From positions 1 through 32,022 of the forward strand of contig CAIKZY010000165.1 in the NCBI GenBank assembly GCA_903832025.1: DNA of 32,022 nucleotides, written 5' to 3'. Every line of letters begins with the position of its first letter. Position 1 is the stretch's first letter. A model generated the notes under the pieces. That model saw only the letters and a list, made by a program, of their open reading frames with translations. It searched no databases and was not told the DNA's origin. Below are positions 5,162 to 22,410 of the stretch, in pieces. The position numbers and the translations under genes were made by a program. The stretch is from an uncultured Actinomycetes bacterium (GTDB lineage Bacteria > Actinomycetota > Actinomycetes > S36-B12).

Positions 5162-6082
5162 GTGAGTGACGGTCGCGACCTGGGTGTGTTCCTTCCCTAC
5201 GAAAGTTCACCAAGCCGGTTTGCACAGGCGGCTGAAGCCGCTGGTTTCGATCGTCTTGCCTATGGCGAGCATGTGCTCTTTCGCCGGCGCGTGCTCAACG
5301 CATTCATTGCACTCGCGGCCGCATCTTCGGTCACGGCTCGTATTCGACTTCTCTCTGCCCTCACTCTCCTCCCGCTCTACCCGCCCGCTCTGGCCGCCAA
5401 GTTGGTCTCGTCGCTCGACGTGGTCTCCGACGGCCGCTTCGACTTCGGTGTGGGCGTCGGCGGCGAGTTCCCGGCGGAGTTCGAGGTCAGCAGTGTCGAC
5501 CTGCCTTCGAGGGGACGTCGCACTGACGCAACGCTCGTGGCGATGCGGGAACTCTTCACCGGCGAAGCGGTAGCGCATGTCGATGGCGAAACGGACTTTG
5601 CGGCTGCGTCGGAGTTGATGCGTCCCAAGCCGGTCCAGCAGCCTCAGCCGCCCATCTGGGTTGGCGGCCGCAGCGAACGAGCCATTTCTCGAGCAGCACA
5701 GTACGGCAACGTGTGGCTGCCCTATCTCATGACGGCCGAGCGACTGACCGCCAGCGCCGAGGTGCTGTCGCAGCGTGCCGCTGACTTCGGTCGCACGACT
5801 GCCGTGCGCATTGCGGTGTCGTGCTTCGTCTACATCGATCGTGACGAGTCGAAGGCTGCTCGGGAGGCCAAGGCCTACGTCTCCAAGCTTTACGAGATCG
5901 AGGAAGACACCATCGCCCGACACGTCATCACAGGCAGCAGCGAGCAGGTCGCGGGGCGATTGACCGAGTTCTATGAGGCCGGTGCGACGCATGTGCTGTT
6001 GAACATGTGCGCCGAAGGGACCGATGCCGACGCGATGCTGGTTCGCGGGGGCAACGAGGTTGGGCCACTGGTTCGAGCCTGA
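5162..6082 (+). CDS. LLM class (F420-dependent type) oxidoreductase
   Basis: A luciferase-like monooxygenase-fold protein of 306 residues. The GTG at 5162 is preferred over TTG at 5141 because AGGAG is six bases upstream. Visible family segments are GFDRLAYGEHV, LPLYPPALAAKLVSSLDVVSDGRF-FGVGVGGEFP, and QPPIWVGGRSERAISRAAQYGNVWLPY. Actinobacterial members of this kind commonly use reduced F420 or flavin for hydride transfer or oxygenation. A TATACT -10-like element lies at 5066-5071, about 95 bases upstream, without a clear -35. It lies between the ligase and amidohydrolase genes and probably modifies the same substrate. The cofactor is inferred from the family, not shown. Confidence 0.88.
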   Translation: MSDGRDLGVFLPYESSPSRFAQAAEAAGFDRLAYGEHVLFRRRVLNAFIALAAASSVTARIRLLSALTLLPLYPPALAAKLVSSLDVVSDGRFDFGVGVGGEFPAEFEVSSVDLPSRGRRTDATLVAMRELFTGEAVAHVDGETDFAAASELMRPKPVQQPQPPIWVGGRSERAISRAAQYGNVWLPYLMTAERLTASAEVLSQRAADFGRTTAVRIAVSCFVYIDRDESKAAREAKAYVSKLYEIEEDTIARHVITGSSEQVAGRLTEFYEAGATHVLLNMCAEGTDADAMLVRGGNEVGPLVRA

Positions 6083-6160
6083 GCGATTTGTCTGGGCAAG
6101 CGCATGAGGTCCGTGGATCGCACGGGCAACGATAGGCGTCGAATCAACCTTTCCTGAGGG

Positions 6161-6189
6161 TTGACACCCGTGTCGGCGTCTGGTGAGAT
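6161..6189 (+). promoter_or_regulatory. promoter of the amidohydrolase gene
   Basis: TTGACA at 6161-6166 and TGAGAT at 6184-6189 are spaced by 17 bases; the same arrangement is conserved in the second copy of the block. Transcription would begin near 6196, inside the palindromic operator. Confidence 0.65.
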
Positions 6190-6191
6190 AC

Positions 6192-6219
6192 GAACAGCCA
6201 TTCGTACGAATAGCTGTTC
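6192..6219. promoter_or_regulatory. 28-bp palindromic operator, probably for a TetR-type repressor
   Basis: The left half GAACAGCCATTCGT and the right half ACGAATAGCTGTTC are reverse complements at 13 of 14 positions, centred on a perfect ATTCGTACGAAT core. The site covers the predicted transcription start, the classic position for steric repression. The only regulator gene in the window is the tetR at 12023-12733, whose divergent control region contains the sister site. Confidence 0.7.
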
Positions 6220-6254
6220 ACGAGAAGGGATCCCTCTGGTGGACTTGGGTTGCG

Positions 6255-7160
6255 ATGAACATCGTTGACGCACAGCTCCACGAGCCCGGACCTTGGATGG
6301 ATTGGGACGGCGCGCCTGACTCCATCCGTGATGGGGTGTTGACGGAGGCCCTGCTCAGTGGCATGGATGCGGTCGGGGTCGACCGGGCGGTGCTCTTCCC
6401 GACCTCTGCTGAGTACGAGGGTTGGGCGCAGCAGGTCGCCTCGACCTGGCCAGACCGGTTCACGTGTGTTCGATGCTTCGACTACGGGAGCCCGGTGGGA
6501 GCAGGCTTGCTCGACCCCATGTCGGCCGATGTTGAGGCTCGTGTCGCTGAGTTGCGTGATTCGTCGCATGTCAGCGGACTTCGCATGGTTGTGAGCTTTG
6601 TTCCCGAAGGTCTGCGCCGCTTTCAGGATGGGCTATGGGACGGTGCAATCGAGGCGTGCGAGAAGTACGAGATGCCACTCTTCGTGTACTGCTCGGGCCA
6701 TCTCGAGATTGCCCGGTCGATCGCGATGAGGTACCCCAATCTCAGGTTGGTGGTGGACCATCTGGGTGTCAAGCAGCCTCCATCGGAGGAGATCGAGAGC
6801 CCGACGTGGCGTGGCATCCCTGAGCTAGTTGAGCTTGCTCGCTTTCCTCATGTCGCCGTCAAGATGTGTGGTGTTCCAAGTCTTTCATCCGAGCGCTACC
6901 CGTACGAGGATACCTGGGAGCACGTGCGTCGGGTCGTCGACGCCTTTGGCGCGGACCGGGTGATGTGGGCATCCGACAACAGCCGATTCCGTGGTCGCCA
7001 CGGATGGCGGCCACGCTTTTCCGGGGATAGTGCACAGGCGGTCATGGATAGCCCGACGTACGCAGAGTCCCTGTCGCTCTTTCGAGATACAGCGGTGTTG
7101 ACGGAAGACGAGAAGCATTGGGTGCTCGGGGCTACAGCGCGGCGAGTTCTTGGCTGGTGA
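6255..7160 (+). CDS. amidohydrolase family protein (TIM-barrel, amidohydrolase_2 type)
   Basis: A metal-dependent hydrolase/decarboxylase-fold protein of 301 residues. The ATG at 6255 is used because no in-frame start lies closer to the conserved GAGAAGGGATCCC segment; the ribosome site is therefore weak. The N-terminus has DAQLHEP where canonical members have HxH, a common QxH variant. Later come VVDHLGV (metal/base His), HVAVKMCGV and VMWASDN (metal Asp region). The protein may hydrolyse a C-C or C-O bond or decarboxylate a ring-cleavage intermediate. It is preceded by the copy A promoter/operator, so it is probably controlled by the TetR protein encoded further right. No specific substrate is assigned. 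Confidence 0.85.
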   Translation: MNIVDAQLHEPGPWMDWDGAPDSIRDGVLTEALLSGMDAVGVDRAVLFPTSAEYEGWAQQVASTWPDRFTCVRCFDYGSPVGAGLLDPMSADVEARVAELRDSSHVSGLRMVVSFVPEGLRRFQDGLWDGAIEACEKYEMPLFVYCSGHLEIARSIAMRYPNLRLVVDHLGVKQPPSEEIESPTWRGIPELVELARFPHVAVKMCGVPSLSSERYPYEDTWEHVRRVVDAFGADRVMWASDNSRFRGRHGWRPRFSGDSAQAVMDSPTYAESLSLFRDTAVLTEDEKHWVLGATARRVLGW

Positions 7161-7253
7161 TGCGTCCCGGGTATCGTCGGTTCGTTTCGCTGGGGTGCGC
7201 GGCCATCAACGGTCACAAGTATAGATTGACGTTTACAACAAGAGAGGCAGGAT

Positions 7254-9083
7254 ATGTCAGGCAGCGATAGCCCGGGTACCGGCGAGAACCAGCAAGTTAC
7301 CGACTCTGGACGGGTCGACGTCGACACCCTGCGGCAAAAGTTTCGCGAGGAGCGCGAGCGGCGGTTGCGCCCTAATACGAACGATCAGTTCCCGGAACTG
7401 ATCGGCCCACTGGGCGATTTTCTGTCTGACCCCTATGTCGATCCGGATTTCACTCGCCCCCCCATCGACGACGAGGTCGATGCGCTCATAGTTGGTGGAG
7501 GCATGAGTGGACTTCTCGCGGCCGCCGAGCTTCGAAAGGCTGGCGTGAAGCGAATTCGAATTGTGGAGAAGGGCGGAGACTTCGGTGGAGTCTGGTACTG
7601 GAACCGGTATCCGGGTGCGAGGTGCGATGTTGAATCGTACATTTACATGCCACTGCTCGAGGAAACGGGATACATGCCGAGCGAGAAATACGCGCGTCAG
7701 CCTGAAATCTTCAAGTATCTCCAGCTTGTGGGCCAGAAGTTTGACCTCTACGACGACGCACTGTTCCAGACGGAACTAACGCAACTGGAGTGGGACGAAA
7801 CTAGCCAGAAGTGGCAAGCGCAAACCGACCGCAAAGATCGCATCGCTGCAAAGTATGTCGTACTCGCGGCCGGCGCCCAGCACCGACCGCGGCTGCCAGC
7901 GATCCCCGGCATTGAAGAGTTCAAGGGGCACATGTTTCACACTAGCCGGTGGGACTTTGGTTACACCGGCGGCGACGAAAATGGGGAGATGCGAGGGCTA
8001 GCCGACAAACGTGTCGGCGTCATCGGTACCGGAGCAACCGGTCTCCAGTGTGTGCCGACGCTCGCTGAGAGCGCGAAGGAGTTGTTCGTCTTTCAGCGGA
8101 CTCCATCCACTGTCGCCGAGCGAAACAACCGTCCAACCGACCCGGGGTGGGTAGAGGCTCTCCGCCCCGGTTGGCAGCGGGAGCGAATGACCAACTTCGT
8201 CAGCTTGGCGCTCGGCATCGAGGTATCAGAGGATCTTGTCGATGACCGCTGGACTTACGCGTGGAGGAAGCTGGGGAGGGGTTTTGTAGACCCGCCCGAG
8301 GGTGCACCCAGCAGCGACGTTTCGGAGTACGAGCGTCACGACATGGAACTCCTCGATGAAATTCATGCGCGCATCGACGGCATCGTCGAGGATAAGGAAA
8401 CTGCGGAGGCGCTGAAACCATATTATCGGTACTGGTGTAAGCGTCCAGGATTTCACGATGACTACCTTAAAACGTTCAATCGCCCGAACGTCAAGCTGGT
8501 CGATACACACGGTCGAGGCGTGGATGCGATTACCCCGAGTGGCGTTGTCGTCGATGGCCAAGAATACGAACTCGATTGCCTGGTCTTTGCCACTGGATTC
8601 GACGTCGGTCACGGCTACCTCAATTCAGGCGCCTTTGATGTGATAGGGCGAGATGGTCTAAGGCTCTCAGAGCAGTGGGGGAACGGTGTTCGATCCTTCC
8701 ACGGCTTCTTCGCCGCGGGGTTTCCAAACTGCTTTTTCACGGGCTTTACTCAAGCGGGATTCACTGCGAACGTCGTCCACACACTGTGGGAGCAGGCAGC
8801 CCACATCGCGCACGTTGTGGGCTGTGTTGAAGATGCGTCAGCGTCGACCGTGGAGACCACAGGCGAGGCCGTGGACGAGTGGCAGGACGAATACGCAAAC
8901 CCGAATCCAGCGACCATCAAGTTTTGGGAGGACTGCACACCCGGATACTTTAATAGCGAGGGCAATGCTCGAAATCCCGAAGGACTTCTTGCCGGTTACT
9001 ATCCGAAGGGCGCACTGGTGTACTTCGACCTCCTTCGTGAGTGGAGGGAGGAAGGCTCTCTCCGCGGTCTCGTCGTGAAGTAG
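7254..9083 (+). CDS. flavin monooxygenase, Baeyer-Villiger type
   Basis: A class B flavoprotein monooxygenase of 609 residues. The first dinucleotide-binding motif GGGMSG is at about 80-85 and the second, GTGATG, near 258. The Baeyer-Villiger fingerprint FxGxxxHxxxW is seen as FKGHMFHTSRW at about 222-232, and an ATGFD motif sits near 446. Such enzymes use NADPH and O2 to insert oxygen beside a ketone, giving an ester or lactone. An N-terminal extension of about 75 residues precedes the FAD domain, as in long-form family members. AGGCAGG precedes the ATG. In this cluster it fits ring-ketone oxidation, and the neighbouring hydrolases could process the product. The substrate is unknown. Confidence 0.93.
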   Translation: MSGSDSPGTGENQQVTDSGRVDVDTLRQKFREERERRLRPNTNDQFPELIGPLGDFLSDPYVDPDFTRPPIDDEVDALIVGGGMSGLLAAAELRKAGVKRIRIVEKGGDFGGVWYWNRYPGARCDVESYIYMPLLEETGYMPSEKYARQPEIFKYLQLVGQKFDLYDDALFQTELTQLEWDETSQKWQAQTDRKDRIAAKYVVLAAGAQHRPRLPAIPGIEEFKGHMFHTSRWDFGYTGGDENGEMRGLADKRVGVIGTGATGLQCVPTLAESAKELFVFQRTPSTVAERNNRPTDPGWVEALRPGWQRERMTNFVSLALGIEVSEDLVDDRWTYAWRKLGRGFVDPPEGAPSSDVSEYERHDMELLDEIHARIDGIVEDKETAEALKPYYRYWCKRPGFHDDYLKTFNRPNVKLVDTHGRGVDAITPSGVVVDGQEYELDCLVFATGFDVGHGYLNSGAFDVIGRDGLRLSEQWGNGVRSFHGFFAAGFPNCFFTGFTQAGFTANVVHTLWEQAAHIAHVVGCVEDASASTVETTGEAVDEWQDEYANPNPATIKFWEDCTPGYFNSEGNARNPEGLLAGYYPKGALVYFDLLREWREEGSLRGLVVK

Positions 9084-9159
9084 CCGTACTCCGTGGCCGG
9101 CAAACCATGCCTTCCTGCTGTCGTGGACAGCGATCGTCGAGCCGGATCGGCACGACAGA

Positions 9160-10173
9160 ATGTCTAGTTCCGACGTTCCCTCCGCACCTGTGCCCGCTCT
9201 GCTGCGGCCCGCCGCCATAGATGTCCATGCCCACTTCGTGACGCCTCGCTATCGCGCATCGGCTCTCGCCCATGGCGCCGGCCAGCCGGATGGCATTCCC
9301 GCGCTACCGGAGTGGGAGCCGAGCGCGGCGTTGAAGGTGATGGACGACGTCGGAATTGCGGCAGCCCTGCTCTCGCTGTCGTCGCCGGGGACGACGTTTG
9401 TCCCCGACCCTGCCGAACGGGCAGGACTCGCAGCAGCGATCAATCAGGACGGTGCCGCCGTCGTGGCCGCCCATCCCGATCGCTTTGGGCTGCTGGCGAC
9501 CCTCCCGTTGCCGGATATCGATGCCGCTGTAGCGGGAATCTCCCACGCCTTTGATGAATGCCACGCGGACGGAATCGGGATGCTGACACATACCGACGGT
9601 GTCTATCTTGGAGATCCCCGGATGGATCCCGTCCTTGCGGCGCTGGATGAGCGGGCCGCGGTTGTCGCCATCCACCCGACCTCGCCGTGCGGCTGGGAGC
9701 AGGTGTCATTCGGGCGACCTCGATCGATGGTCGAGTTTCCTCTTGACACTACGCGTGCCGTCTTCAATCTCGCTCTGTCGGCTGCCTTCACGCGATTCCC
9801 TCGGATCCGCTGGATCGTGCCGCATGCGGGCGCGGCACTGGCGGTGCTGGTCGATCGGGTCGAACTCTTCTCTCGCTCGATCATGCCCACCGATCCTCCC
9901 GTGGACCTCCTTCACGAACTTGGCCGGTTGCACTACGACCTTGCCGGCGTGCCGTTGCCAAGGGCCCTCCCGGCCCTTCTGGGCCTCGTCAACGTGTCCC
10001 AGTTGCTCTACGGCAGCGACTTCCCCTTCACCCCTGCCGGACGCGTCCATCATCTGGCACTCGCCCTCCAGGAGACCGATCACCTCACCAACCCAGCGCG
10101 GACCGCCGTCCTCCATGCGAACGCGGCGAGGCTGTTCCCGCGACTTCAGGCTGACGCCAGCCCGAGCGCGTAG
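9160..10173 (+). CDS. amidohydrolase family protein, ACMSD-like
   Basis: A 337-residue TIM-barrel metal-dependent hydrolase/decarboxylase. Metal-ligand candidates are well preserved: DVHAH (His23, His25), AIHP (His near 172), VPHAG (His near 222) and YGSDFPF (Asp near 287). This pattern matches the aminocarboxymuconate-semialdehyde decarboxylase branch, which contains decarboxylases and C-C hydrolases acting on ring-derived acids. It begins 76 bases after the monooxygenase stop and is probably cotranscribed with it. It is not a close paralogue of the amidohydrolase at 6255, which has the QxH variant. Confidence 0.88.
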   Translation: MSSSDVPSAPVPALLRPAAIDVHAHFVTPRYRASALAHGAGQPDGIPALPEWEPSAALKVMDDVGIAAALLSLSSPGTTFVPDPAERAGLAAAINQDGAAVVAAHPDRFGLLATLPLPDIDAAVAGISHAFDECHADGIGMLTHTDGVYLGDPRMDPVLAALDERAAVVAIHPTSPCGWEQVSFGRPRSMVEFPLDTTRAVFNLALSAAFTRFPRIRWIVPHAGAALAVLVDRVELFSRSIMPTDPPVDLLHELGRLHYDLAGVPLPRALPALLGLVNVSQLLYGSDFPFTPAGRVHHLALALQETDHLTNPARTAVLHANAARLFPRLQADASPSA

Positions 10174-10288
10174 TGGGGGTGCAGTGGGGGTGCTGAGACG
10201 GGAATCGGGCCGTGGCATTGGCGCATCGGCATCGCGCAGTCGGACAGCCAATGGCCCTGCCACGAGTCGATCGACGACGCCTACGCCC

Positions 10289-11197
10289 TCACGCCCGCGG
10301 ATCCGCCCCACCCCGTTGCCTCGGCGCACTGCTGCGTCCGGAGAGCTGCTCGATGATCATGATGAGCGCTGAATGATCGAGGCCTCCCAAGCCCTGGGCC
10401 TTGAGTGAGGCTACGAGTTGCGCAACGACCGCCCCGACAGGAATGACTACTCCGGCATCGCGCGCCGCCGCCGTGACGATGCCCATGTCCTTGTCGTGCA
10501 AGGCGATCCTGAATCCCGGGTCGAAGTTGCGGGCGAGCATCGAGGTGCCCTTGCGTTGCATCACGGTGCTGCCCGCCAGTCCGCCACCGAGCACCTCCAA
10601 CGCGGCCTCAACATCAATGCCGTAGGCATCAAGGAACACCATCGCCTCGGCGAGGAGTGCGATGTTGCCCGCCACAATGAGCTGGTTGGCCGCCTTGACC
10701 GTCTGTCCGGAGCCGTTTGGGCCGACGTGGACGATGGTCTTCCCGACCGCGGTCAGAACAGGCTGAGCGGAGGCGAAGTCGTCAGCGTCCCCACCGACCA
10801 TGATCGACAGGACGGCGTCGATCGCCCCTTGCTCACCTCCGGAGACGGGAGCATCGAGGACACGGAAGCCCTGCGCCTTGCCGTCGGCCGCCAACTGTGC
10901 GGAGACGTCCGGCCGGATGCTGGAGAAGTCGATGACGAGCGTGCCCGGCCTCGCCGACGCGAAGACGGCAGCCATCACCTCGGCCACGTCTGGGGAGTCC
11001 GGCACCATTATGGCGACGACGTCTGCGTCCGCCGCCGCCTCGGCGACGCTCCTGACACCCCGCCCGTTCGCGGTGAGCAACGCATCGACAGCGCTCCTGC
11101 TGCGGTTGTAGCCGACGACATCGAAGCCGGCCTTCACGAGGTTGCGTGCCATCGGGGCACCCATGATGCCCAGGCCGACGAAGCCAATGCTCGTCAT
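10289..11197 (-). CDS. NAD(P)-dependent beta-hydroxyacid dehydrogenase (GarR/HIBADH type)
   Basis: A member of the 3-hydroxyisobutyrate / 2-hydroxy-3-oxopropionate reductase family, 302 residues. The ATG at 11197 is preceded by AGAAGGAG five bases upstream. It shows the Rossmann motif GFVGLGIMGAPMA at 5-17, DAPVSGGEQGA (substrate loop), VKAANQ with the catalytic lysine, and a GGLAGSTV...RNFDPGFRI...HDKD C-terminal pattern. That last pattern resembles tartronate semialdehyde reductases more than true HIBADHs. The role is reversible oxidation of a short beta-hydroxy acid. It is transcribed towards the amidohydrolase and has its own upstream inverted repeat. Confidence 0.9.
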   Translation of the reverse strand: MTSIGFVGLGIMGAPMARNLVKAGFDVVGYNRSRSAVDALLTANGRGVRSVAEAAADADVVAIMVPDSPDVAEVMAAVFASARPGTLVIDFSSIRPDVSAQLAADGKAQGFRVLDAPVSGGEQGAIDAVLSIMVGGDADDFASAQPVLTAVGKTIVHVGPNGSGQTVKAANQLIVAGNIALLAEAMVFLDAYGIDVEAALEVLGGGLAGSTVMQRKGTSMLARNFDPGFRIALHDKDMGIVTAAARDAGVVIPVGAVVAQLVASLKAQGLGGLDHSALIMIIEQLSGRSSAPRQRGGADPRA

Positions 11198-11567
11198 GAT
11201 TGCTCCTTCTGGATCTAGTGCCGTTCGCGAGGGAACTGTCTGTGCAAAGAACAGACGGCGTGGATGGGAGCCCGACCGGACCACCGTAGCCGAGGTGTTC
11301 GAGTCGCCCGAGCCAGCCACTCAACACTCGCCTGTCGCGTCCGACAGGTCCGGCCTCGAGAATCCTCCGGGGGTAGATCGACACGAGATGCGGGAGTCCG
11401 ATTTATGCTCGTCCGGCACGACGGACACGTTGCCTCGGGGTGGTAGGTTCCGTACAGAAGACACTAATGACGGTTCTCGTGTCGTCGGCGACGACGACGC
11501 AATCCTGGAAGGACGCACTGACTATGCATCTGAAGCTTGAGCCGGAGTCCACCGCTGGGACGACCGC
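11198..11567. other. divergent intergenic region, GarR-like / SnoaL-like genes
   Basis: About 370 bases separate the leftward dehydrogenase from the rightward SnoaL-like gene. It contains one clear inverted repeat (11238-11256). TTGCCT (11430-11435) and TACAGA (11453-11458) are spaced by 17 and could be a weak rightward promoter. I see no convincing gene. Confidence 0.5.
11238..11256. promoter_or_regulatory. inverted repeat upstream of the GarR-like gene
   Basis: Perfect arms GTCTGT and ACAGAC flank 7 bases. The site ends 41 bases upstream of the dehydrogenase ATG, a plausible operator position. Its sequence differs from the palindrome at 6192-6219. Confidence 0.4.
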
Positions 11568-11969
11568 ATGAACCCGGCGGACGAAGTGGCGATCATTCAC
11601 CTCTATGCCGATTACAACAGGACGATCGATGAGGGCGACATCGAGGGCTGGGTCGCGACGTGGGCGACTGACGGCACCTTCGAGCTTCCGTCTCGGGCAT
11701 ACAACGGTCATGGGGAACTGCGGGACTTCGGCCAGCGTCGCACCTCGAGCCTTCCGTCGCAGCCCGTCGGTTCACAGCGGCACTGGAACGCCGAGGTGCA
11801 GGTGAGCGGCGACGGAGACTCTGCGAGCGGGAGTTGCCTGCTGATGGTTGCCGGCCAGGACCGCTCGTCCGGCACATGGGTGGTCGTCGCACGGGGCAGA
11901 TACATCGACGAACTCACCAAGGTCGATGGTCACTGGGCGTTTCGCCGAAGGACTGCGGCCCTCGACTGA
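11568..11969 (+). CDS. SnoaL-like / nuclear transport factor 2-fold protein
   Basis: A 133-residue protein of the cone-shaped alpha+beta barrel fold. The N-terminal helix segment IIHLYADYNRTIDEGD followed by WVATWATDGTFELPS is the hallmark of SnoaL_4-type proteins, and the C-terminus carries YIDELTKVDGHWAFRRR. Members act as small-molecule isomerases, dehydratases or cyclases, or as subunits of ring-hydroxylating systems; many have unknown roles. Here it lies next to the regulator gene within the catabolic cluster and may handle a ring intermediate. It ends 53 bases before the convergent tetR gene. Confidence 0.82.
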   Translation: MNPADEVAIIHLYADYNRTIDEGDIEGWVATWATDGTFELPSRAYNGHGELRDFGQRRTSSLPSQPVGSQRHWNAEVQVSGDGDSASGSCLLMVAGQDRSSGTWVVVARGRYIDELTKVDGHWAFRRRTAALD

Positions 11970-12022
11970 TGCGCGAGTGCGGCCTGCGCGCGAGCCGCAC
12001 CGCGTCGGACAACCGGAAGCCG

Positions 12023-12733
12023 TTACCCGGAGGCGGATTTCTTGCGAGCCGATTTGCGCTCCGCTCGCGCAGCCCCATGGGTCGACTCGACATCAGCACC
12101 GAGTTGTCGCAATGCCATTTCCGCGTAGTGGTCGGCGATCTCGTCGAGCGTCAGAGGGCCGCCCTCCTGGAACCATTGCGAGACACCGATCCCCATCTCG
12201 AGCAAGGCGTAAGTCGACAGTTGAGCGGAGGGCGTGGCGAAGGCTCCCGTGTTGATGCCGCGCTCGATCATCGCCTGCCACCGACGCGCGTACGTGCGCC
12301 TCTGCTGCCGCACCTCGCGTTGATGTTGCTCCTCGAGGCTCGCGATCTCACGGTTTCCCACTCGCACGTCGCGTCGATGGGTCGCGTGGTAACGCACATG
12401 CACCTCCATGGCCAGACGCAGCTCGGCAGCAGGATCCGCACTGTCCTGCGCCTGCTTGATCGACTCGTCGAACACCCGGATGAGCTCGCGCATGGTGGTG
12501 AGCATGATGTCCGCCAGCAGGATCTGCTTCGACGGTAGGTGGTTGTACAGGCTCGAGGCGCGAATGCCGACAACGCGGGCGATGTCCTCCATGCCGGTTC
12601 CGTAGTATCCCCGCTCGGAGAACAGGGTGAGTGCCGCCTCCCGGATTTCCAGCATCCGTCCAGTGAACTGGCGCTCCGCAGGCTTGCCCGCCGTCCACGT
12701 ACCAGGGCCGACAACGCCTTGAACTCCGCTCAC
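12023..12733 (-). CDS. TetR family transcriptional regulator
   Basis: A one-component repressor of 236 residues. An extension of about 25 residues precedes the TetR DNA-binding domain. REAALTLFSERGYYGTGMEDIARVVG is followed by IRASSLYNHLPSKQILL, with the helix-turn-helix at about 49-68. The remaining residues form a ligand domain, and the C-terminus is a basic tail rich in Lys/Arg. The GTG start has GGAAGG eight bases upstream. It is divergent from the acyl-CoA dehydrogenase-CorA fusion gene, and the shared region contains the copy B promoter/operator. I infer that it represses that gene and the amidohydrolase at 6255, with an acyl-CoA or pathway intermediate as a likely inducer. Confidence 0.93.
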   Translation of the reverse strand: MSGVQGVVGPGTWTAGKPAERQFTGRMLEIREAALTLFSERGYYGTGMEDIARVVGIRASSLYNHLPSKQILLADIMLTTMRELIRVFDESIKQAQDSADPAAELRLAMEVHVRYHATHRRDVRVGNREIASLEEQHQREVRQQRRTYARRWQAMIERGINTGAFATPSAQLSTYALLEMGIGVSQWFQEGGPLTLDEIADHYAEMALRQLGADVESTHGAARAERKSARKKSASG

Positions 12734-12884
12734 ACGTCAGTCCTTCCATTCGCGGCTGGACGCACGCAAGACAACGGGCAAAGTCGCGGCACCGCCTCCC
12801 GCACCGCCGTCGTGTTCGGGCGATTGGCCGAGAGTAGCAGTGCCGACCCTGTCCGATGCTGAAGCCCCACCGGGTACATGAGGG

Positions 12885-12913
12885 TTGACACTCGTCCCCG
12901 TGTCTGGTGGGAT
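12885..12913 (+). promoter_or_regulatory. promoter of the acyl-CoA dehydrogenase-CorA fusion gene
   Basis: TTGACA at 12885-12890 and TGGGAT at 12908-12913 have 17-base spacing, exactly as in copy A. The predicted start falls in the operator. GGAGAAGGGAT then serves as the ribosome site for the ATG at 12964. Confidence 0.65.
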
Positions 12914-12915
12914 AC

Positions 12916-12943
12916 GAACGGCCATTCGTGCGAATTGCTAATC
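12916..12943. promoter_or_regulatory. operator, degenerate copy of the 28-bp palindrome
   Basis: The left half GAACGGCCATTCGT is nearly the same as in copy A, but the right half GCGAATTGCTAATC is symmetric with it at only 9 of 14 positions. The inner ATTCGT/CGAAT core remains. This may be a weaker binding site, appropriate for an autoregulated divergent region. Confidence 0.6.
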
Positions 12944-12963
12944 GGGAGAAGGGATCCCCGCGA

Positions 12964-14601
12964 ATGGACCTCGCCGTCTCCCCGCAGGTGAACGACCTCA
13001 TCCAGCGGACTCGCGAGTTCGTTCGGCTGGAAGTACTGCCCTCCGAGGACCACTTCGGTGGTGTCGCTCAGGGCGAGCCTTGGCGGATTTCGCTACAGGA
13101 GGCTGCCCGACGATACGGCATATTCGGGCCGCACCTTCCCACCCGCTACGGTGGCGCCGGCCTGGGACTCGCTGACCGCGCCCCGGTGTTCGAAGAGGCA
13201 GGGTATTCACTCTTCGGAGCACTGGCGATCAATGCCGCCGCGCCTGACGAGGGGAACCAGCACCTCCTGGGCCATGTTGCCAACGACGCACAGCGCGAGC
13301 AGTATCTGACGCCTTTGGCTCACGGGGAGATTAGATCAGCCTTCGCCATGACTGAACCTGCTCCCGGGGCGGGCTCCGACCCGCGCGCGCTTCGAACGGC
13401 GGCGGCCCGAGTCCCAGGCGGCTGGCGAATCGACGGGTTGAAACACTTCATCACGGGCGCGGACGGCGCCGCATTCACCATTGTCATGGCTCGAACCTCT
13501 GGTGCTGCGGGTGACGCGGACGGCGCCACGATGTTCCTTGTCGACGCAGACAATCCCGGGATGATCGTGACGCGCCACCTTCCGACGATGGACAAGAGCA
13601 TGATCGGTGGGCACTGTGAAGTCCGGTTCACCAATTGCCTTGTCGCCGACTCAGCGGTCCTCGGCGAGGTGGACCAGGGTTTCCGCTACGCCGGTGTCCG
13701 GCTGGGCCCGGCTCGTATGACGCACTGCATGCGGTGGCTCGGCGCCGCCCGGCGCGCGCATGAGTTCGCTGTGAACTACGCCGCGGAACGGGAGGGTTTC
13801 GGCGAACGACTCGCCAACCTCGGCATGACTCAACAGATGATCGCGGACTCCGAAATAGATATCGCTGCAGCTCGAGGGTTGATTCTGCGCTCCAGTTGGG
13901 AGATCGATCAAGACATGGAATCGAACGACTCGACCTCGATCGCGAAGACGTTCGTCACCGTGCGCACCGGGCAGATCGGGGATCTTCGTCCGATCAGGGA
14001 GCGCGTGGAGACAACGTGGGAGATTCGCGCGAACGGCCCGCGTGGTGCGCTCTACGCCATCATGGATGCCGTTGTCGATGAATACCTGCATGACTCCGAT
14101 GAGATCTCGTGGGGCATCGAGGAAATCGAGACGGTCGTATTCGATGTGCGCTACCCGCAAATCCCGGCCGACCGCATCTATCGCCTGAAGCGGGAGAACA
14201 TCGAGATCCGACGGGGCAGTGCTCCCTTGCTCGGACTTGCACAGGACATGGTCAATGCCAGGGCACCGTGGGTGCCCGCCGGACTGCGCGCGAACTTTCA
14301 GGATGTCGGCGACCACTTGATGCGCGTCAATGATGCCGTCGAAGCGGCGGACAATCTGTTGCTCTCACTGCTCACCACGGCCACATCCTTGCAAGATCAT
14401 CAGCAGAACAGCGATATGCGCAAAATCTCGGCGTATGCATCCATGGCCTTGGTGCCCACCATGATCGCCGGCATCTATGGCATGAATTTCGACAACATGC
14501 CTGAGCTGCACTGGCAATACATGTATTACGCGGTCTTGGGACTGATGGGGACGGTCGTTGGATTCCTGTATTGGCGATTCAAGAAGTCCGGCTGGCTGTG
14601 A
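12964..14601 (+). CDS. chimeric gene: truncated acyl-CoA dehydrogenase fused to truncated CorA
   Basis: One uninterrupted frame encodes 545 residues of two unrelated families. Residues 1 to about 328 are an acyl-CoA dehydrogenase of the ACAD10/11-like branch (RYGGAGLGL, AMTEPAPGAGSDP, LKHFITGADGA, ERLANLGMTQQMIADSEIDI, SSWEIDQ). From about 331 on it is CorA-type Mg2+ channel: TVRTGQIGDLRPIRERVE, DRIYRLKRE stalk helix, first membrane helix, the YGMNF signature at 505-509, NMPEL, second membrane helix and RFKKSGWL end. The dehydrogenase lacks its last 80-100 residues, including the usual catalytic Glu region; CorA lacks its N-terminal cytoplasmic portion of roughly 100-130 residues. The ATG at 12964 has a good ribosome site. 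Function as either protein is doubtful. Confidence 0.85.
   Translation: MDLAVSPQVNDLIQRTREFVRLEVLPSEDHFGGVAQGEPWRISLQEAARRYGIFGPHLPTRYGGAGLGLADRAPVFEEAGYSLFGALAINAAAPDEGNQHLLGHVANDAQREQYLTPLAHGEIRSAFAMTEPAPGAGSDPRALRTAAARVPGGWRIDGLKHFITGADGAAFTIVMARTSGAAGDADGATMFLVDADNPGMIVTRHLPTMDKSMIGGHCEVRFTNCLVADSAVLGEVDQGFRYAGVRLGPARMTHCMRWLGAARRAHEFAVNYAAEREGFGERLANLGMTQQMIADSEIDIAAARGLILRSSWEIDQDMESNDSTSIAKTFVTVRTGQIGDLRPIRERVETTWEIRANGPRGALYAIMDAVVDEYLHDSDEISWGIEEIETVVFDVRYPQIPADRIYRLKRENIEIRRGSAPLLGLAQDMVNARAPWVPAGLRANFQDVGDHLMRVNDAVEAADNLLLSLLTTATSLQDHQQNSDMRKISAYASMALVPTMIAGIYGMNFDNMPELHWQYMYYAVLGLMGTVVGFLYWRFKKSGWL
13945..13962 (+). other. recombination (or assembly) junction inside the fusion gene
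   Basis: Acyl-CoA dehydrogenases read SMAKxFVSEA at this place and CorA proteins read FVxTVRHG; the observed protein reads SIAKTFVTVRTG. The switch therefore falls in or beside the shared Phe-Val codons, at about 13951-13956. No insertion sequence, target duplication or att-like repeat is visible around it, so microhomology joining is the simplest explanation if it is real. Confidence 0.65.
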
Positions 14602-14615
14602 TGCCAGCGCCAGCT

Positions 14616-15206
14616 CTAGCGGACGGTGACCGATTCGTTGCCCCATGGGGTGATCGGTGCGTCCGCAGTTGCCTGAAAGGCCGTCGGCAGGTCCTCCACG
14701 ATATGCAGCGTTGCCGCTAATCGCCCCACCCCGACGAACAGGGCACACTGCAGGCCGATCTCGACGATCTCGCCTTCGGTGAAATGCCTGCCCAGTTCGT
14801 CGTAGAAGTCTTGGTCGATAGCCAGATGGTTACTGGCGAACAGGTCCGCGTATCGCACGGCCAGGCGCTCTGCATCGGTCAGGTCCGGTGCTTGGTACGG
14901 CTGTTCCAGCGTGCAGACCAGCTCCTCGGTGAGTCCGTCGTCAACAGCGTCCTGGTAGCGAATGGCCATGCAACTTCGGCACTGATTGTGGAAGGCAATG
15001 CGCAGGCGCATCAACTCCACCATGCGGCGCGGCAACTGGCCCTTCTTCAAGGCCCGAGTGAACGCGGTCAGTGGCTCGGCGAGATCGGGTCGATGTCCGA
15101 TGATGGAGCCCACCGCCAGCTCCAGCGGCGTGCGCTCTTGTGCCTTGATGAGTTCGGCATATTCGGGGGGAAGCTCATCGACGCTGAGGCGGCGGACCCT
15201 GGCCAT
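14616..15206 (-). CDS. carboxymuconolactone decarboxylase / AhpD-like family protein
   Basis: A 196-residue all-helical CMD/AhpD-superfamily protein. The ATG at 15206 is preferred over upstream frames because AAGGGAG is six bases before it. The signature region reads RLRIAFHNQCRSCMAIRYQDAVDDG, giving a CxxC pair at 76/79. The histidine that follows four residues after the second Cys in AhpD peroxidases is Arg here. It also has the typical LTDAERLAVRYADLFASNH second repeat. It could be a thiol-dependent peroxide or alkyl-hydroperoxide reductase partner or simply a family member of unknown reaction. Its stop is 14 bases from the convergent fusion gene's stop. Confidence 0.88.
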   Translation of the reverse strand: MARVRRLSVDELPPEYAELIKAQERTPLELAVGSIIGHRPDLAEPLTAFTRALKKGQLPRRMVELMRLRIAFHNQCRSCMAIRYQDAVDDGLTEELVCTLEQPYQAPDLTDAERLAVRYADLFASNHLAIDQDFYDELGRHFTEGEIVEIGLQCALFVGVGRLAATLHIVEDLPTAFQATADAPITPWGNESVTVR

Positions 15207-15351
15207 GAGCACTCCCTTGACGAACGGAATCCCATCGTAGATCCCGCGGTGGCTCATCAGCGGGCAAACCGGCCAACCCGGTGATGCCACCACAGGGCCA
15301 TGCGGGAAAAATGAGGCGTGATCGGGATGAGCCGGTCATGTCCTGCAGGCG

Positions 15352-16236
15352 GTGAGCATGCTCTACCCGATCCTCATCGCATACGCGATCGGGGCCCTGA
15401 CGGGTTTTTGGGCGAGCAAGCGGCCGGCGTTGACCCAGCGGTGGCATCACGTGGTTCGTGCCGAGCTCCTGATCACTACGGTGACACTGTCGATCACGGC
15501 CGCATGGCGGATCACTTCGTTGTCCCAGGTGCTGTGGCCCGCGCTGATTGCGTTGATCTTGTTCATCATGCTCGGGCTGACATGGTTGACCGAGAGCGAA
15601 CCATCGCGAGCCAGCAAGGCGAGCTTGCATGCGTGGGCCACCACGCCGAACACCGGCTTCTTCGTGCTGCCTGCCTCAGCCTCACTTGCCGGACCGGCAG
15701 GGGCGGTGGCCGGTGTCCTGCTGGACCGACTCAGTGCAGTGATTTTCGCCTCGTACGTGCACCTCTTGCGCAAGCATGCACCCCGAACGCAGCGAACGGT
15801 GACGTTCTGGATCGACCAGTCTCCGATCGTGGCGATGACGCTGGGAATTGCGCTCCACCTGGTAGGCCCTGCCCCGGCCTGGACCGCAACGTTGACGCAG
15901 TGGGCGTCCCCGCTGATGGCGATGATCGGGGCCAGCATCTACGTCGGGTCATTGCTGCATCCCAGTCAGCGGATCGACCCTCGGCCGGGTATCAAGCGGT
16001 GGGCAGTGCTGACCGCGACGCGCAGTTTGCTGCTGGTGCCGTTGATCGTATTCGCGCCCACGCCGGCGTTGCGTTTGGTGTCGATCCTGTGCGTGCTGTC
16101 GATTCCGGCCTTTGGTGCCTTGCAGATGTCAACGGTGTACGGCTACTCCGACTCGGTCGTTGCCGCTGCTGCCCGATATTCGTGGATCTTGGGCGCCATC
16201 GGACTGCTCGTTGGGTACCTCGGACTGCATCACTAG
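15352..16236 (+). CDS. membrane transporter, AEC (auxin efflux carrier)-like
   Basis: A polytopic membrane protein of 294 residues with about eight to ten hydrophobic segments. The middle part, TPNTGFFVLPASASLAGPAGAVAGVLLDRLSAV, resembles the conserved central segment of AEC permeases (NTGFxGxP...), and overall length is typical of the family, which exports or takes up organic acids. GTG at 15352 or ATG at 15358 could be the start; GTG gives the full hydrophobic N-terminus. Its TAG at 16234-16236 overlaps by three bases the stop of the convergent ParB-like gene. The family assignment is moderate and no substrate is implied. Confidence 0.6.
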   Translation: MSMLYPILIAYAIGALTGFWASKRPALTQRWHHVVRAELLITTVTLSITAAWRITSLSQVLWPALIALILFIMLGLTWLTESEPSRASKASLHAWATTPNTGFFVLPASASLAGPAGAVAGVLLDRLSAVIFASYVHLLRKHAPRTQRTVTFWIDQSPIVAMTLGIALHLVGPAPAWTATLTQWASPLMAMIGASIYVGSLLHPSQRIDPRPGIKRWAVLTATRSLLLVPLIVFAPTPALRLVSILCVLSIPAFGALQMSTVYGYSDSVVAAAARYSWILGAIGLLVGYLGLHH

Positions 16237-16687
16237 GAGCTTGTGGGTGACGTCCATGTCGTGGGCACACCGGGATAGTCGATGATGCGGCACGGAATCA
16301 ACTCGTTCTCGCTCAGGTGATAGCTGGCACACACTCGGTGGTACCCGTCGGCGATGATTGCCGGCAGTCCCAGTCGGCCGTTGCCCCGCACGATCAGCAC
16401 CGGTGACAGCAACTGCCCATTCTTGACTTTCTGCAGATCGCGTTGCACTGCCCAGTCATCGGCTCCCAGGAGCGGCAGGTGCGTGGCCCGCAGCAGGTCC
16501 TTGGCCGGATGCTGCTCGATGGGAGCCGCCTTGAGCAGGTCGGCGACATGGCCGCAATTTCCTTGGCGCAGATCAGGGACAGGTACGACTGAGCAGCCGG
16601 ATAGTCGTGATCGTCCGGATCATGCTTCCAGATTTCCGCGGGCACGGGAATCGTGATGACCTTCTTCTTGCCCTGCTTGTCCGCCAT
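16233..16687 (-). pseudogene. ParB-like nuclease-domain protein, interrupted by a -1 frameshift
   Basis: Translation from the ATG at 16687 (AAGGAG six bases upstream) gives MADKQGKKKVITIPVP...YLSLICAKEIAA, then loses sense at about 16550. The next frame continues directly with VADLLKAAPIEQHPAKDLLRA, LLSPVLIVRGNGRLGLPAIIADGYHRVCASYHL and a TAG at 16233-16235. Restoring one C in the GGCC run (GCGGCC to GCGGCCC) would rejoin the two into a protein of about 150 residues. The DGYHRVCASYH segment resembles the ParB/Srx-type domain seen in small actinobacterial proteins of unknown function. The lesion is either a real mutation or a homopolymer error. It lies 62 bases downstream of the glycosyltransferase gene. 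Confidence 0.75.
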
Positions 16688-16749
16688 GTGCGCTCCTTCC
16701 GGCCTCGACTCTACGGGGTTCGGTGCCAGTGCGTGATGAGACGGCGCGG

Positions 16750-17901
16750 CTAGGACACCCACCACCCGTGCGTGAATCGATACGTCCAGTACGCCAGCGC
16801 CGGCAGTGCCACGATCAGGTACACCCATCGCAGCCACCGGTAACGCGTCAGCAGCGTTCCCAATGCCAGCCAGACCGGAAAGAGCACGACCAGCGTCCTG
16901 GGCACGGACAGGTATACCGAACTGGTTGCCAAGGACACGGCAGTCACTGCGATGTATGCCAACTCTGCCCACGCCCGGCTTCTGATGAGCCAGACAGCGA
17001 CGATCACGATGATCGCCATCGCGGCGATCTCGAAAGCGAATCGTGAGGGCTCGGTGGCGGTATTGCCTGGCGTTGCGGCGATGAACATGTGATGCCAGGT
17101 CTTCAGCAGTGCGTGAACGGGATCTGTCAGGTGCCGATGCCAATAGATGCGCTGGGCATCGTTCCAGGCAGTCCAGGACCCGGTGATGGCCCTGAGATAT
17201 GTCAGGTACCCGAGCGTGACCACGAAGGGCAGCGCGACCCATCCCAGATTCCGCCAGCGCACCGGTCGTGTGGTGACCAGCATGACCAGCAATCCGATCC
17301 CCAGGAACAGGCCGTTGATACGGACCAGGGCAGCTGCGCCGGCCAGCAGTCCGGCCCAGGCCCATTGCTGGCGGCGGGCAAACCACCAGGCCCAGAACGC
17401 CGCGGCGCAGAACAGTCCCTCGGTGTACGCAGCGGTGAGGAAGACCGCTGTCGGCGCAGCAACCCATGCGATCACCGTCCACCGACCACTGATCCCGGCC
17501 AGGGCCGCCAAGCGATCCAGGGCCATCGCCGCGGCGAAGCCGGCAATGACGGAAACCAGCAGACCCGCCCACGTGCGGTCCAGGGACATCAATGCGCCAG
17601 CGCGCATCAGCGCGGGCAGCCCTGGAAAAAAGGCGACGTTGTAGTGGAAGTCCTTGTGCAGTTCGACAACCCTTGGACCGACATATCCGTACTTGGCGAT
17701 GCTGTCGAACCAGACGGTGTCCCACTGGAACCATTGCTTGGCGATGGATGCTGGCGACAGGCCGGGCTGAAGGGTGCGCCATCCGCCGATGATCGCCGCA
17801 GCGAACACGAACACTCGAGAGGCGATCCAGATCAGGGCAATGCTGGTCGTGCTGTGTGCGTTCCGGCTCCGGCCTGGACCGCTGCGCAGGAGGCTGGTCA
17901 C
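16750..17901 (-). CDS. GT-C fold membrane glycosyltransferase, PIG-V-like
   Basis: A 383-residue polytopic membrane protein. The N-terminal membrane helix is followed by a loop with QWDTVWFDSIAKYGY (about 59-73) and FHYNVAFFPGLPALMR (about 85-100), the pattern of PIG-V-type mannosyltransferases (WDxxWF...GY, FFPxxP). About eight further hydrophobic helices follow. Such enzymes transfer a sugar from a polyprenyl-phosphate donor on the outer face of the membrane. Its GTG start at 17901 overlaps the TGA of the upstream GT-C gene as GTGA, implying translational coupling and a shared envelope-glycan role. Acceptor and sugar are not deducible. Confidence 0.82.
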   Translation of the reverse strand: MTSLLRSGPGRSRNAHSTTSIALIWIASRVFVFAAAIIGGWRTLQPGLSPASIAKQWFQWDTVWFDSIAKYGYVGPRVVELHKDFHYNVAFFPGLPALMRAGALMSLDRTWAGLLVSVIAGFAAAMALDRLAALAGISGRWTVIAWVAAPTAVFLTAAYTEGLFCAAAFWAWWFARRQQWAWAGLLAGAAALVRINGLFLGIGLLVMLVTTRPVRWRNLGWVALPFVVTLGYLTYLRAITGSWTAWNDAQRIYWHRHLTDPVHALLKTWHHMFIAATPGNTATEPSRFAFEIAAMAIIVIVAVWLIRSRAWAELAYIAVTAVSLATSSVYLSVPRTLVVLFPVWLALGTLLTRYRWLRWVYLIVALPALAYWTYRFTHGWWVS

Positions 17902-19445
17902 TGAATGGCCTGCGCCGTTACTGCGTACAGCGTGCCGTCTGCGGTCACGGCGACCATGTGCACGTGCAGTCCGAGCGCTCGCAGGACATCCGGTGTCGCC
18001 GCAGCAACGGCATGGGTGCCATAGGCCAGGTATCTGACCTCTCCGCTGCGAATTTGCTTCACCAGCACGGCGACCTTCTTGGCACTGACGTTCGTCGCGC
18101 CCTTGCCGGTGAGCAGCGGAATGGCTTTCACCGGAGAGCGCCCGGTATTCCAGTTCATCTGCCACGGGTCGGTTGCGGCAATCACGGTGCCATCGGGTAC
18201 CTGCTGCGCTCGTGCGGTCAGTGCTGATTGGCGTGAGACGACGGAGTTGTAGCCCACGCCAGCCTTCCAGGCCCGATGGACATAGACCCCCGCCTGCAGC
18301 GCTGAGGCGACCGCCACAGCCAGCACCAGCACCACGGCGGCAACGCCGAAGTCGTGCGCACGCACCACGGCATACGAGGAGTCCTGCCCGGCGATCCACT
18401 GACGAATCCCGATGGCTCCGTACGCGGCCAGGATCAGCATGGGAACGATGGCAGGTGCCGACAGGCGAACGCTGACCGGATCGAGCAGGCTCGTTGCCTC
18501 CGAGCCCCAGATGGCAAGCCAGTACACCGCTGCGAACACCACGATGATGGCCATGGCCGAACTTCGCGCGGTGACCGTGCGGTACACCCCGGCAATGACC
18601 AGTGCAATGAGCACGCACGCGATGACCGGAGCCAGGAGCCGCGCCAGCGATGCCAGCGTTGTCCCGGGAAGCCAGTACAGGCCCAGTGCAGTGAACGTGT
18701 CCTTGGCAATGCGCCCGGGACCAAATCCGCCGGGCTCGCGCTGGCCGAGCACGGACACCCCGAGGTGGTGATTGCGCAGTCCGATGGCGACCAGTCCGAT
18801 GGCGGATAGCACCACTGCCACTGCCAGGCGAAGTGCGCGCATGGATGCCGATGCCCTGGGCAGGACGGCGGCGGTCAGGGCGACGATGATCAAGATCGCT
18901 CCGGCGTACCGAAGGCTGGTTGCCGCGCTGATCAGCAGCGACATGCTGATGAGCGTGGCCCAGCGTGCCTTCACCGTGACAAAGCGAACTGCAAGCAGAA
19001 GCACCCCCAGGCAGATGGTCGTGAACCAGGGCTCAGTCCATGCCATGGAGAACACTGCGGCGGTACCGGCGGCCGTGGCGGTCAGGAGCGCAATGAGCAA
19101 CGCAGCCGTCTGACTGCCCAGGCTGCGCACACTGAGGAGGTAGCTCACGATCACCGCACCCACTCCTGCCAGTACGTTCAGCGCAACGACCGCACCCTGC
19201 AGTGAGATGCCCAGCCAGGCAGCGCCTGCCAGGATGATGGGGTACCCGGGAGGAAATACCGTCAGCGGTACCCCAAAGAGATTCGTGAGCTCGCCGTACT
19301 GGTGAAGGTGCTGCGCGGTCGACAGGTAGGTCACTGAGTCGGGGGAGATGCCCGGTCCGTGCCGTGAGGCAATCAGGCTCAGGATGCCGACCAGCGCTGC
19401 CAGGATGCCAACGACCAGCATTGGCCGGCGATGTAGCGCGCCCAT
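17898..19445 (-). CDS. GT-C family membrane glycosyltransferase
   Basis: A 515-residue integral membrane protein. The ATG at 19445 is chosen because AAGGGAG is four bases upstream; the longer open frame before it is Arg/His-rich and not plausible. After the first membrane helix, an extracytoplasmic loop carries SPDSVTYLSTAQHL with Asp36, the position of the catalytic or metal Asp in GT-C enzymes, and then VFPPGYPIILAG. About ten further helices and a soluble C-terminal domain of about 100 residues follow. It is probably a polyprenyl-phosphate-sugar dependent transferase acting on envelope glycan or glycolipid. It is the first gene of a two- or three-gene leftward operon. Confidence 0.82.
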   Translation of the reverse strand: MGALHRRPMLVVGILAALVGILSLIASRHGPGISPDSVTYLSTAQHLHQYGELTNLFGVPLTVFPPGYPIILAGAAWLGISLQGAVVALNVLAGVGAVIVSYLLSVRSLGSQTAALLIALLTATAAGTAAVFSMAWTEPWFTTICLGVLLLAVRFVTVKARWATLISMSLLISAATSLRYAGAILIIVALTAAVLPRASASMRALRLAVAVVLSAIGLVAIGLRNHHLGVSVLGQREPGGFGPGRIAKDTFTALGLYWLPGTTLASLARLLAPVIACVLIALVIAGVYRTVTARSSAMAIIVVFAAVYWLAIWGSEATSLLDPVSVRLSAPAIVPMLILAAYGAIGIRQWIAGQDSSYAVVRAHDFGVAAVVLVLAVAVASALQAGVYVHRAWKAGVGYNSVVSRQSALTARAQQVPDGTVIAATDPWQMNWNTGRSPVKAIPLLTGKGATNVSAKKVAVLVKQIRSGEVRYLAYGTHAVAAATPDVLRALGLHVHMVAVTADGTLYAVTAQAIQ

Positions 19446-19614
19446 GACTCCCTTTGGTGGTGTTGGGTCAGCACGGGCGTTGTGCCCTCGGTGAGCATCG
19501 TGCAGGTGTGAGGTGTCAGGAACGTGAACACGACATTGCCTGTTCGGTCTGAGTCTAGTCGCACGGCCGCCCGGGTGCACCTGCTCTTCAGCGGCAGATC
19601 AGCAGAGGTGAGCC

Positions 19615-19968
19615 TTACCGCTGAGCCAGGTGCGCCATGCGAACGGAGATCAGTTTGCCGACCAGTTCTCGCGGCAGGGGTTGATCAACGCCAAAGCGAA
19701 GAGCCCCGGCAGTGCGCTGATAGCCGCCCAAGTCCTCGATGAGTTCGCCGAGAACCGAACCGGAGTGAGGGAAGTACGACAGGTGGGCCTTGAACGCCGC
19801 GATGCCGGCGACCGCTTGTCCGTTGATGGAGAAACAGGGCATGCGGTAGCGCATGCCCTGCTCGGCTGCGGGGAGAAACGACAGGATTGATTCCCGCACC
19901 GTCTGCAAGGTTGCGGCCTTGGGCTGGGGTAGGCCCAGGATGTACTGATCGACCTCTTGTGTGCTCAC
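19615..19968 (-). CDS. DUF1801 domain protein (YdhG-like)
   Basis: A small cytoplasmic protein of 117 residues. The GTG at 19968 with GGAG seven bases upstream gives the typical start STQEVDQYI. The family pattern is clear: the helix LQTVRESILSFLPAAEQGMRYRMPCFSINGQAVAGIAAFKAHLSYFPHSG followed by TAGALRFGVDQPLPRELVGKLISVRMA. These proteins adopt a YdhG-like fold; their biochemical role is generally unknown and some relatives are suspected iron- or metal-related chaperones. It stands alone, divergent from the small hydrolase-like gene at 20108. Confidence 0.87.
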   Translation of the reverse strand: MSTQEVDQYILGLPQPKAATLQTVRESILSFLPAAEQGMRYRMPCFSINGQAVAGIAAFKAHLSYFPHSGSVLGELIEDLGGYQRTAGALRFGVDQPLPRELVGKLISVRMAHLAQR

Positions 19969-20107
19969 CGGTGTCTCCGATACCGCGCAGGGAATCTCCG
20001 AAAGTCTACGCACGTGGCACTGCGGAACCACGGTGCACTCATCGGCGTCTGATCGGTACTGCGCGTCGATCGGTGCGCGGGAGCGCAGGACGACGTAGAG
20101 GAGCCGC

Positions 20108-20626
20108 ATGACTTCGCAGATCACCGGCATTGGCGGCATCTCGCTCCGCGTTCACGGTGACACGGAATTCGCCGAGCGAGCGGTCATCGTCTTTCCTGAA
20201 CCCAGCGCTGATCACGAGGCGCTGCTTGCGCGCGAGTCCTTGTGCGAACACCTTGCGCATGCAGGCCAGGTGGTGGTCGTCGAGGTGGATGTGCGTGGCG
20301 ACGAGCAGGTCGCAGACCTGGCCGGTCAGGTTCTGGACTGGACGCTGGAATGCATCGAGGTCATGGACGGCCTGGTCGTGGTGGGTGAAGGCGCAGGCTG
20401 CGATGTCGCTGAGCAGTTCGTGGCCGCCGACGTGGAAGCCGAGATCGGGGCCATCACGGCAATCGTGTTGTTCCAGGACGGTGATCATGACGGCGGGTTG
20501 TTGACACTCAGGACACCCGATCGTTGGCCGTCTACGCACATGTATCCGCTTCGCACTCCGGCGACCGCTCGCATCGCTGCGATCCTGGAAGCACTTGAGC
20601 ACGCGAAGTCGGTCGAGGATCGGTGA
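20108..20626 (+). CDS. small alpha/beta-hydrolase-like protein lacking the nucleophile
   Basis: A 172-residue protein with GAGGAG before the ATG. It alternates predicted strands and helices: RAVIVFPEP, then QVVVVEVDVRGDEQVADLAGQVLDWTLE, then DGLVVVGEGAGCDVAEQFVA, then ITAIVLF. This is the order of an alpha/beta-hydrolase core, with VDVRG matching the common DxRGxG region and GEGAG in the place of the nucleophile elbow GxSxG. Glu replaces Ser, and no obvious catalytic Asp/His follow. It could be a non-catalytic relative or a binding protein; this is inference from pattern only. It lies just upstream of the PAP2 gene and may be cotranscribed with it. Confidence 0.6.
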   Translation: MTSQITGIGGISLRVHGDTEFAERAVIVFPEPSADHEALLARESLCEHLAHAGQVVVVEVDVRGDEQVADLAGQVLDWTLECIEVMDGLVVVGEGAGCDVAEQFVAADVEAEIGAITAIVLFQDGDHDGGLLTLRTPDRWPSTHMYPLRTPATARIAAILEALEHAKSVEDR

Positions 20627-20667
20627 CAAGCTGATTCGGCACCGCATGCATCCTGCAAGATGAGCAC

Positions 20668-21537
20668 ATGCCCGTCCACGTTGTCACGCAGGGATTGGGC
20701 TGGATGCCCTGGAAACCGGCGCTGGCGCTGGCCGCGATCTTGGCGGTGGTGTGGCTGAGCCTTCGTGGGTTTGCGCGCACCCGGGTTGGCGCGCAGATCG
20801 CTTCCCAATTGGCCTTGATGATGGCCTTGTACGCGCTGTGGCAGTTGGCAGGAAGCTATGGATCGCCAGATCCGGCGGTGGCGGTTGCGCGCGGAGCATG
20901 GTGGGCATCGCTGGAGCAGCATCTGGCGATGCCGAGTGAGGCGTGGATCCAGGGTCCGGTTCTTGGTCACCTGTGGGTGATGTCAACGGCAGATATCTAT
21001 TACTCCGCGGTGCACGTTCCGGTATTTCTGATCGTCCTGGGCTGGGTGTTGTTCATGCGCCGGGCGGACTGGCCATTTGTCCGCACAACCGTCGTGGTGC
21101 TCACCGGAGTCTGCTTGGTGATCCAGTACATCGCGGTTGCTCCGCCACGGCTTGTTCCTGGACTTGGCGTGGTCGATACCGGCAAGCTCGATCACCATTC
21201 GGTGTACGAGGTCATCGCCGGTGCCAATCAATACGCCGCCATGCCATCGGTGCATGTGGCGTGGGCGGCGGCAGTGGCGTTGACCATCGTGGTGGTGGCC
21301 CGCTCACCCTGGCGCTGGCTGTCACTTGCCTATCCGTTGTGCACGTGGTGGGTCGTCATCGTCACCGGCAACCACTTCATCGTCGATGGGCTGGTGGCCA
21401 TTGCCCTGCTCGCGGTGTCGGCGGGTATTGCGTGCGTGATTCCTTCACAACGACCGGTGCGATGGTCTCGGTCGGGCAACGCGCCGCCACGTGCTGACGA
21501 TGCAGTCAGCGCATCGCCAGCACGTGGCACGGCATGA
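20668..21537 (+). CDS. PAP2-superfamily membrane phosphatase / phosphotransferase
   Basis: A 289-residue integral membrane protein with about six hydrophobic helices. It has the conserved sites of the inositolphosphotransferase Aur1/Ipt1-like PAP2 branch: APPRL at 158-162, MPSVHVAWA with the catalytic His at 196, and GNHFIVDGL with His236 and Asp240. Members dephosphorylate or transfer phospho-headgroups of lipids on the outer face of the membrane. The C-terminal tail of about 40 residues is Ala/Ser/Pro/Arg-rich and probably disordered. It starts 41 bases after the preceding gene and ends 11 bases from the convergent lysozyme-like gene. Confidence 0.85.
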   Translation: MPVHVVTQGLGWMPWKPALALAAILAVVWLSLRGFARTRVGAQIASQLALMMALYALWQLAGSYGSPDPAVAVARGAWWASLEQHLAMPSEAWIQGPVLGHLWVMSTADIYYSAVHVPVFLIVLGWVLFMRRADWPFVRTTVVVLTGVCLVIQYIAVAPPRLVPGLGVVDTGKLDHHSVYEVIAGANQYAAMPSVHVAWAAAVALTIVVVARSPWRWLSLAYPLCTWWVVIVTGNHFIVDGLVAIALLAVSAGIACVIPSQRPVRWSRSGNAPPRADDAVSASPARGTA

Positions 21538-21548
21538 CGGTCAAGCGG

Positions 21549-22404: not shown

Positions 22405-22410
22405 CTTAAA

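Follow-up and report, generated by a model that had tools for sequence, protein, structure and literature searches.

The open reading frame at positions 12964-14601, which joins the first part of an acyl-CoA dehydrogenase (ACAD) to the last part of a CorA channel, is probably a chimeric join of a foreign catabolic segment to the host corA in a draft genome and not a fusion gene. The window (the whole 32,022-base stretch of DNA that was analyzed) is the complete contig C165 of draft G000, a 2.21-Mb draft in 187 contigs that is 98% complete and 0.4% contaminated, and that is probably a metagenome bin because its nearest named relatives are bins. At the join the assembly forks into two continuations, and the composition of the DNA breaks at the same place. 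The junction is therefore most likely a product of assembly, or at best the scar of a broken gene, and not a new protein.

To describe the two halves, Pfam profiles and alignments with homologues were used. The frame is a single ORF of 545 amino acids, and the stop-to-stop frame would permit a GTG start at 12907. It matched Acyl-CoA_dh_N, Acyl-CoA_dh_M, positions 1-97 of the 150 of Acyl-CoA_dh_1, and positions 78-292 of the 292 of CorA (PF01544). The homologue alignment placed the switch from ACAD to CorA within KTFV/TVR, with ACAD similarity extending up to SIAKTFV and CorA similarity starting from TVR; at this point the ACAD homologues read SIAKTFVAEA and the CorA homologues FVITVRFGQIGDL. 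A sequence-only reading of this DNA had described about 328 ACAD residues and 215 CorA residues in one frame with the junction at Phe-Val codons, and the alignments, together with contig C187 described below, gave 331 and 214, which is within 3 residues, and the same Phe-Val position in KTFV/TVR. The breakpoint at 13956/13957 (after residue 331) is fixed exactly because the identity to C187 stops at 13956. That reading was also correct, by Pfam coverage and alignment, as to what each half keeps and lacks. The CorA half carries the GMN signature (YGMNF) and, by aligned sequence only, the two C-terminal helices, and it is missing the N-terminal part of the cytosolic domain (profile positions 1-77). 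The ACAD half has an incomplete C-terminal domain from which the catalytic-base or IYDGPSE region is missing; this region is found on C187 and on L082, a related contig. The in-frame state at the junction is little evidence alone, as it has a chance of 1 in 3.

Table 1. Features of the window around and on either side of the junction.
Positions	Strand	Feature	Evidence
1..13956		Foreign catabolic segment: ACAD, SDR, ECH, AMP-ligase, luciferase-like, 2 amidohydrolases, flavin monooxygenase, HIBDH-like, TetR	Composition; 7224-13956 colinear with L082
12964..13956	+	ACAD10/11-like acyl-CoA dehydrogenase 5′ part, residues 1-331	Profiles, alignment with homologues
13867..13956	+	90-base stretch shared without mismatch with the end of C187	Search of own genome with junction DNA, alignment
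13956..13957		Junction, where the assembly forks; composition change-point computed at 13953	C187 alignment, Markov change-point
13957..14601	+	3′ part of the host corA, encoding the last 214 residues with YGMNF and the two C-terminal membrane helices	PF01544, alignment
13957..32022		Segment of genome-typical composition; right end shares a 78-base overlap with contig C60	Composition, contig-end overlap

Searching the draft itself with the junction DNA recovered C187 (L162), a 3,799-base contig of the same draft. The end of C187 is identical to window positions 13867-13956 at 90 of 90 bases, and the two sequences part at exactly 13957. Past the fork, C187 encodes AEAIGRIVDRAVQICGG...IYDGPSEAHRW, which is the ACAD C-terminus that is absent from the window; next comes an APH-family kinase gene, and after it an AMP-ligase gene on the opposite strand. 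Because C187 and C165 share these 90 bases and then part at the fusion point, one assembly holds two ACAD continuations, and an alternative continuation at the join within the same assembly is expected of a chimeric contig. The concern about a chimeric assembly, already voiced from the sequence alone, thus stands, while an 'in-frame fusion' in the biological sense is left without support, since the proper ACAD continuation lies on C187.

Branch points that were left unresolved do occur in this draft, because contig ends overlap by 78 to 106 bases (78, 97 and 106 besides the 90 seen here). These other lengths led us to reject a fixed assembler k-mer as the sole cause of the 90-base overlap. The overlaps of 106 and 97 bases were noted at the end of L180 (C3) and between the end of L183 (C6) and positions 43-139 of L235 (C162). 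Just past the junction, the ACAD and corA continuations matched at 18 of 36 bases in register, as compared with 6-10 at shifts of 1-3, and the alignment showed no resemblance between CorA and ACAD homologues upstream of the junction. An ordinary shared k-mer of at least 21 bases is unlikely because the homologous CorAs do not carry the ACAD sequence upstream of the junction. Given the in-register agreement and the missing upstream resemblance, a template switch, an inexact join or recombination over short homology fits better than a long shared k-mer.

To locate the composition break, tetranucleotide profiles were compared with 70 six-kb bins drawn from stretches sampled on the other contigs of the genome. 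The profile of positions 1-13956 lay beyond all of these bins (70/70), and the six-kb bins within 13957-30000 fell at the 9th to 54th percentile of the genome's own bins. C187 was as foreign in composition as the left part of the window, and C60 was host-like. A Markov change-point analysis whose foreign model was trained on 1-12000 only, so that the position of the fork was not used, placed the boundary at 13953, three bases off the fork; training the model on L082 instead moved it to 14213. A composition boundary at the junction is also what a genomic island would produce, and it supports the earlier view that the junction parts a foreign catabolic segment from ordinary chromosome. By composition, the ACAD and CorA halves have shared one sequence for a short time, if at all. 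Atypical composition was also seen in contigs L318 (C61), L322 (C67) and L325 (C73), which carry an ISL3-type transposase, integrase-family genes and an AbiEii-like gene.

The closest intact ACAD was that of L082, contig C344 of G088 (Kiruna3_bin-1975), which belongs to another genus of the same family. The ACAD part of the window shares 94% amino acid identity with the intact ACAD of L082, and positions 7224-13956 are colinear with L082 at 89% DNA identity. The entire C187 is likewise colinear with L082, at 92% identity, directly after the block that matches 7224-13956; the left part of the window followed by C187 is therefore the homologous gene order, as both are colinear and consecutive in L082. 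A kinase gene lies 3′ of ACAD on C187 and in L082, and the window has no APH-family kinase gene after its ACAD part. No further L082-like continuation past C187 was found in G000. The identity to L082 is a mosaic of 73-83% over 7.2-9.2 kb and then mostly 87-99%; the mosaic boundary (about 9.2 kb) separates the flavin monooxygenase gene from the second amidohydrolase gene, and the composition is atypical in both genomes. The left segment is not clearly native G088 DNA; it may be mobile or come from a third organism, because L082 is atypical within G088 as well. Among the other sampled genomes of the phylum, the matches to the left segment reached only 66-74% identity. G088 also has an uninterrupted corA on another contig. 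For the ACAD part compared with L082, dN/dS came to about 0.27 (0.032/0.119), which is consistent with a working ACAD gene before the join.

On the corA side, the genome searches covered the readable contigs, those of about 3 kb and longer (25 of the 121 sampled were shorter), and within this range the window corA was the only CorA match. The same searches found no N-terminal half of corA, no corA-side fork or reciprocal product, and no second boundary between host and island. A deletion or inversion, proposed from the sequence alone, gains no independent support, as neither the corA N-terminal half nor a reciprocal product was found in the searched contigs. The corA neighborhood is fixed in many family members. 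In G000 this family-wide locus corresponds to L295 (C135), positions 1861-3571, from which corA and its UppP neighbor are gone, and a histidine-phosphatase gene abuts a luciferase-like gene; the phosphatase match extends to 2499 and the match of the next gene starts from 2495. With corA and UppP absent there, this locus was rejected as a source of the other corA half. In both genomes of the same genus, G001 and G002, corA also lies away from the family-wide locus. Window positions 16278-16550 are 73% identical to a gene near corA in G002, which fits the reading of the right part as host DNA. The right part further contains long minus-strand frames with no Pfam match (16394-19580) and a thioredoxin-like domain fused to a pyridine-nucleotide disulphide oxidoreductase, in an AhpF-like layout (23380-24960).

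No match spanning both halves was found among 59 relatives, 85 family members or 80 contig loci. The fusion is thus unique to C165 among the sampled genomes, and an established fusion family, which would have shown as many homologues with the same fusion, was rejected. Plasmid records gave matches to the ACAD half only (65-73% identity) and none across the junction at 80% coverage, and the junction 33-mer was not found in viral contigs. There is no tRNA at the junction or anywhere in the window, and no integrase or transposase among the scanned genes around the junction. A literature search on CorA without its N-domain returned nothing usable.

If the join is chimeric, the 3′ part of the host corA would have been attached, at 13956/13957, to a foreign segment whose intact ACAD runs into an APH-family kinase gene, as on C187 and L082. 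C165 would then have taken the corA path, which we infer to be an artefact, and the proper ACAD continuation would have been left over as the short contig C187. The source may be a library molecule that was itself chimeric, or an inexact join led by the short local resemblance just past the junction. Chimeric contigs are well documented, above all for species of low to intermediate coverage (PMC7881036). Against this explanation, a contig with the corA N-terminus, predicted if the host corA is intact, was not found in the searched range, and the join requires either some junction-bearing reads or inexact joining. The main alternative, which we rate as less probable, is that the junction is genuine. 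At least some of the population would then carry a foreign catabolic island that entered the host corA or recombined with it, so that both corA and the island's ACAD were cut; C187 would be a second intact copy in other cells or in an unintegrated form, and the frame a pseudogene scar. The failure to find the corA N-terminus in the searched contigs would be expected from this, corA is already gone from the family-wide locus in G000, and the junction has few bases in common at most, which is typical of illegitimate recombination. The related segment is compositionally foreign in G088 too and hence looks mobile, and the binning of C187 with the host despite its foreign composition hints that it shares the host's abundance. 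However, the second boundary and the integrase or transposase were both missing from what was searched, and the intact ACAD continuation calls for a second copy that is 100% identical over the overlap. A real and recent illegitimate recombination in the living population, between a catabolic island with a relative in another genus of the same family and the host corA, whose open ACAD-CorA frame may even be translated, is somewhat doubtful.

A duplication in one genome, in which the ACAD segment is present twice, once intact (into C187) and once cut short in corA, the assembler having merged the upstream part that both copies share, would account for the exact identity of the two ACAD continuations over 90 bases up to the junction. 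However, C187 ends inside the shared stretch, as any unresolved fork would, and the upstream 4.8 kb is seen once in the searched genome, although a collapsed repeat would look alike; we consider this very improbable. A functional bifunctional ACAD-CorA channel protein that was established by selection has hardly any credibility. The frame is open across the junction, both parts have good profile scores and the dN/dS of the ACAD part can be cited in its favor, but this ratio mirrors intact ACADs that predate any fusion, the fusion is known from C165 only, the ACAD is without the end of its C-terminal domain (IYDGPSE motif) and the CorA without the start of its cytosolic domain, and the composition leaves the halves little or no time together.

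With a chimeric join preferred, the case is an example of a draft-genome join giving rise to an in-frame 'novel fusion protein'. Such joins can be recognized without reads when the base at which an alternative continuation leaves for another contig of the draft is also the site of a composition step. Were the junction real, a catabolic island would have been acquired at the expense of the only CorA in the searched genome.

The window resembles the interspecies or island/host chimeric contigs of metagenome assemblies in that a foreign segment abuts host DNA, the proper continuation lies on another contig and there is a composition step. It differs in that no long shared repeat, usual in such contigs, is evident at the join and in that the frame stays open. 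Compared with the CorA Mg2+ channel (PF01544), the window shares the C-terminal 214 residues with YGMNF and both helices, and not the N-terminal part of the cytosolic domain. ACAD10 and ACAD11 are polypeptides with a kinase and a dehydrogenase that phosphorylate 4-hydroxyacyl-CoAs and feed them into beta-oxidation (PMC12440821, PMC11342911). L082 and C187 appear to be the two-gene counterpart of this type, with ACAD directly followed by an APH-family phosphotransferase (kinase) gene (L082 6543-8854; C187 2466-3797), and the window differs from it in having neither the C-terminal motif region nor the kinase gene. By analogy, the ACAD and kinase pair is a candidate for bacterial 4-hydroxy acid catabolism.
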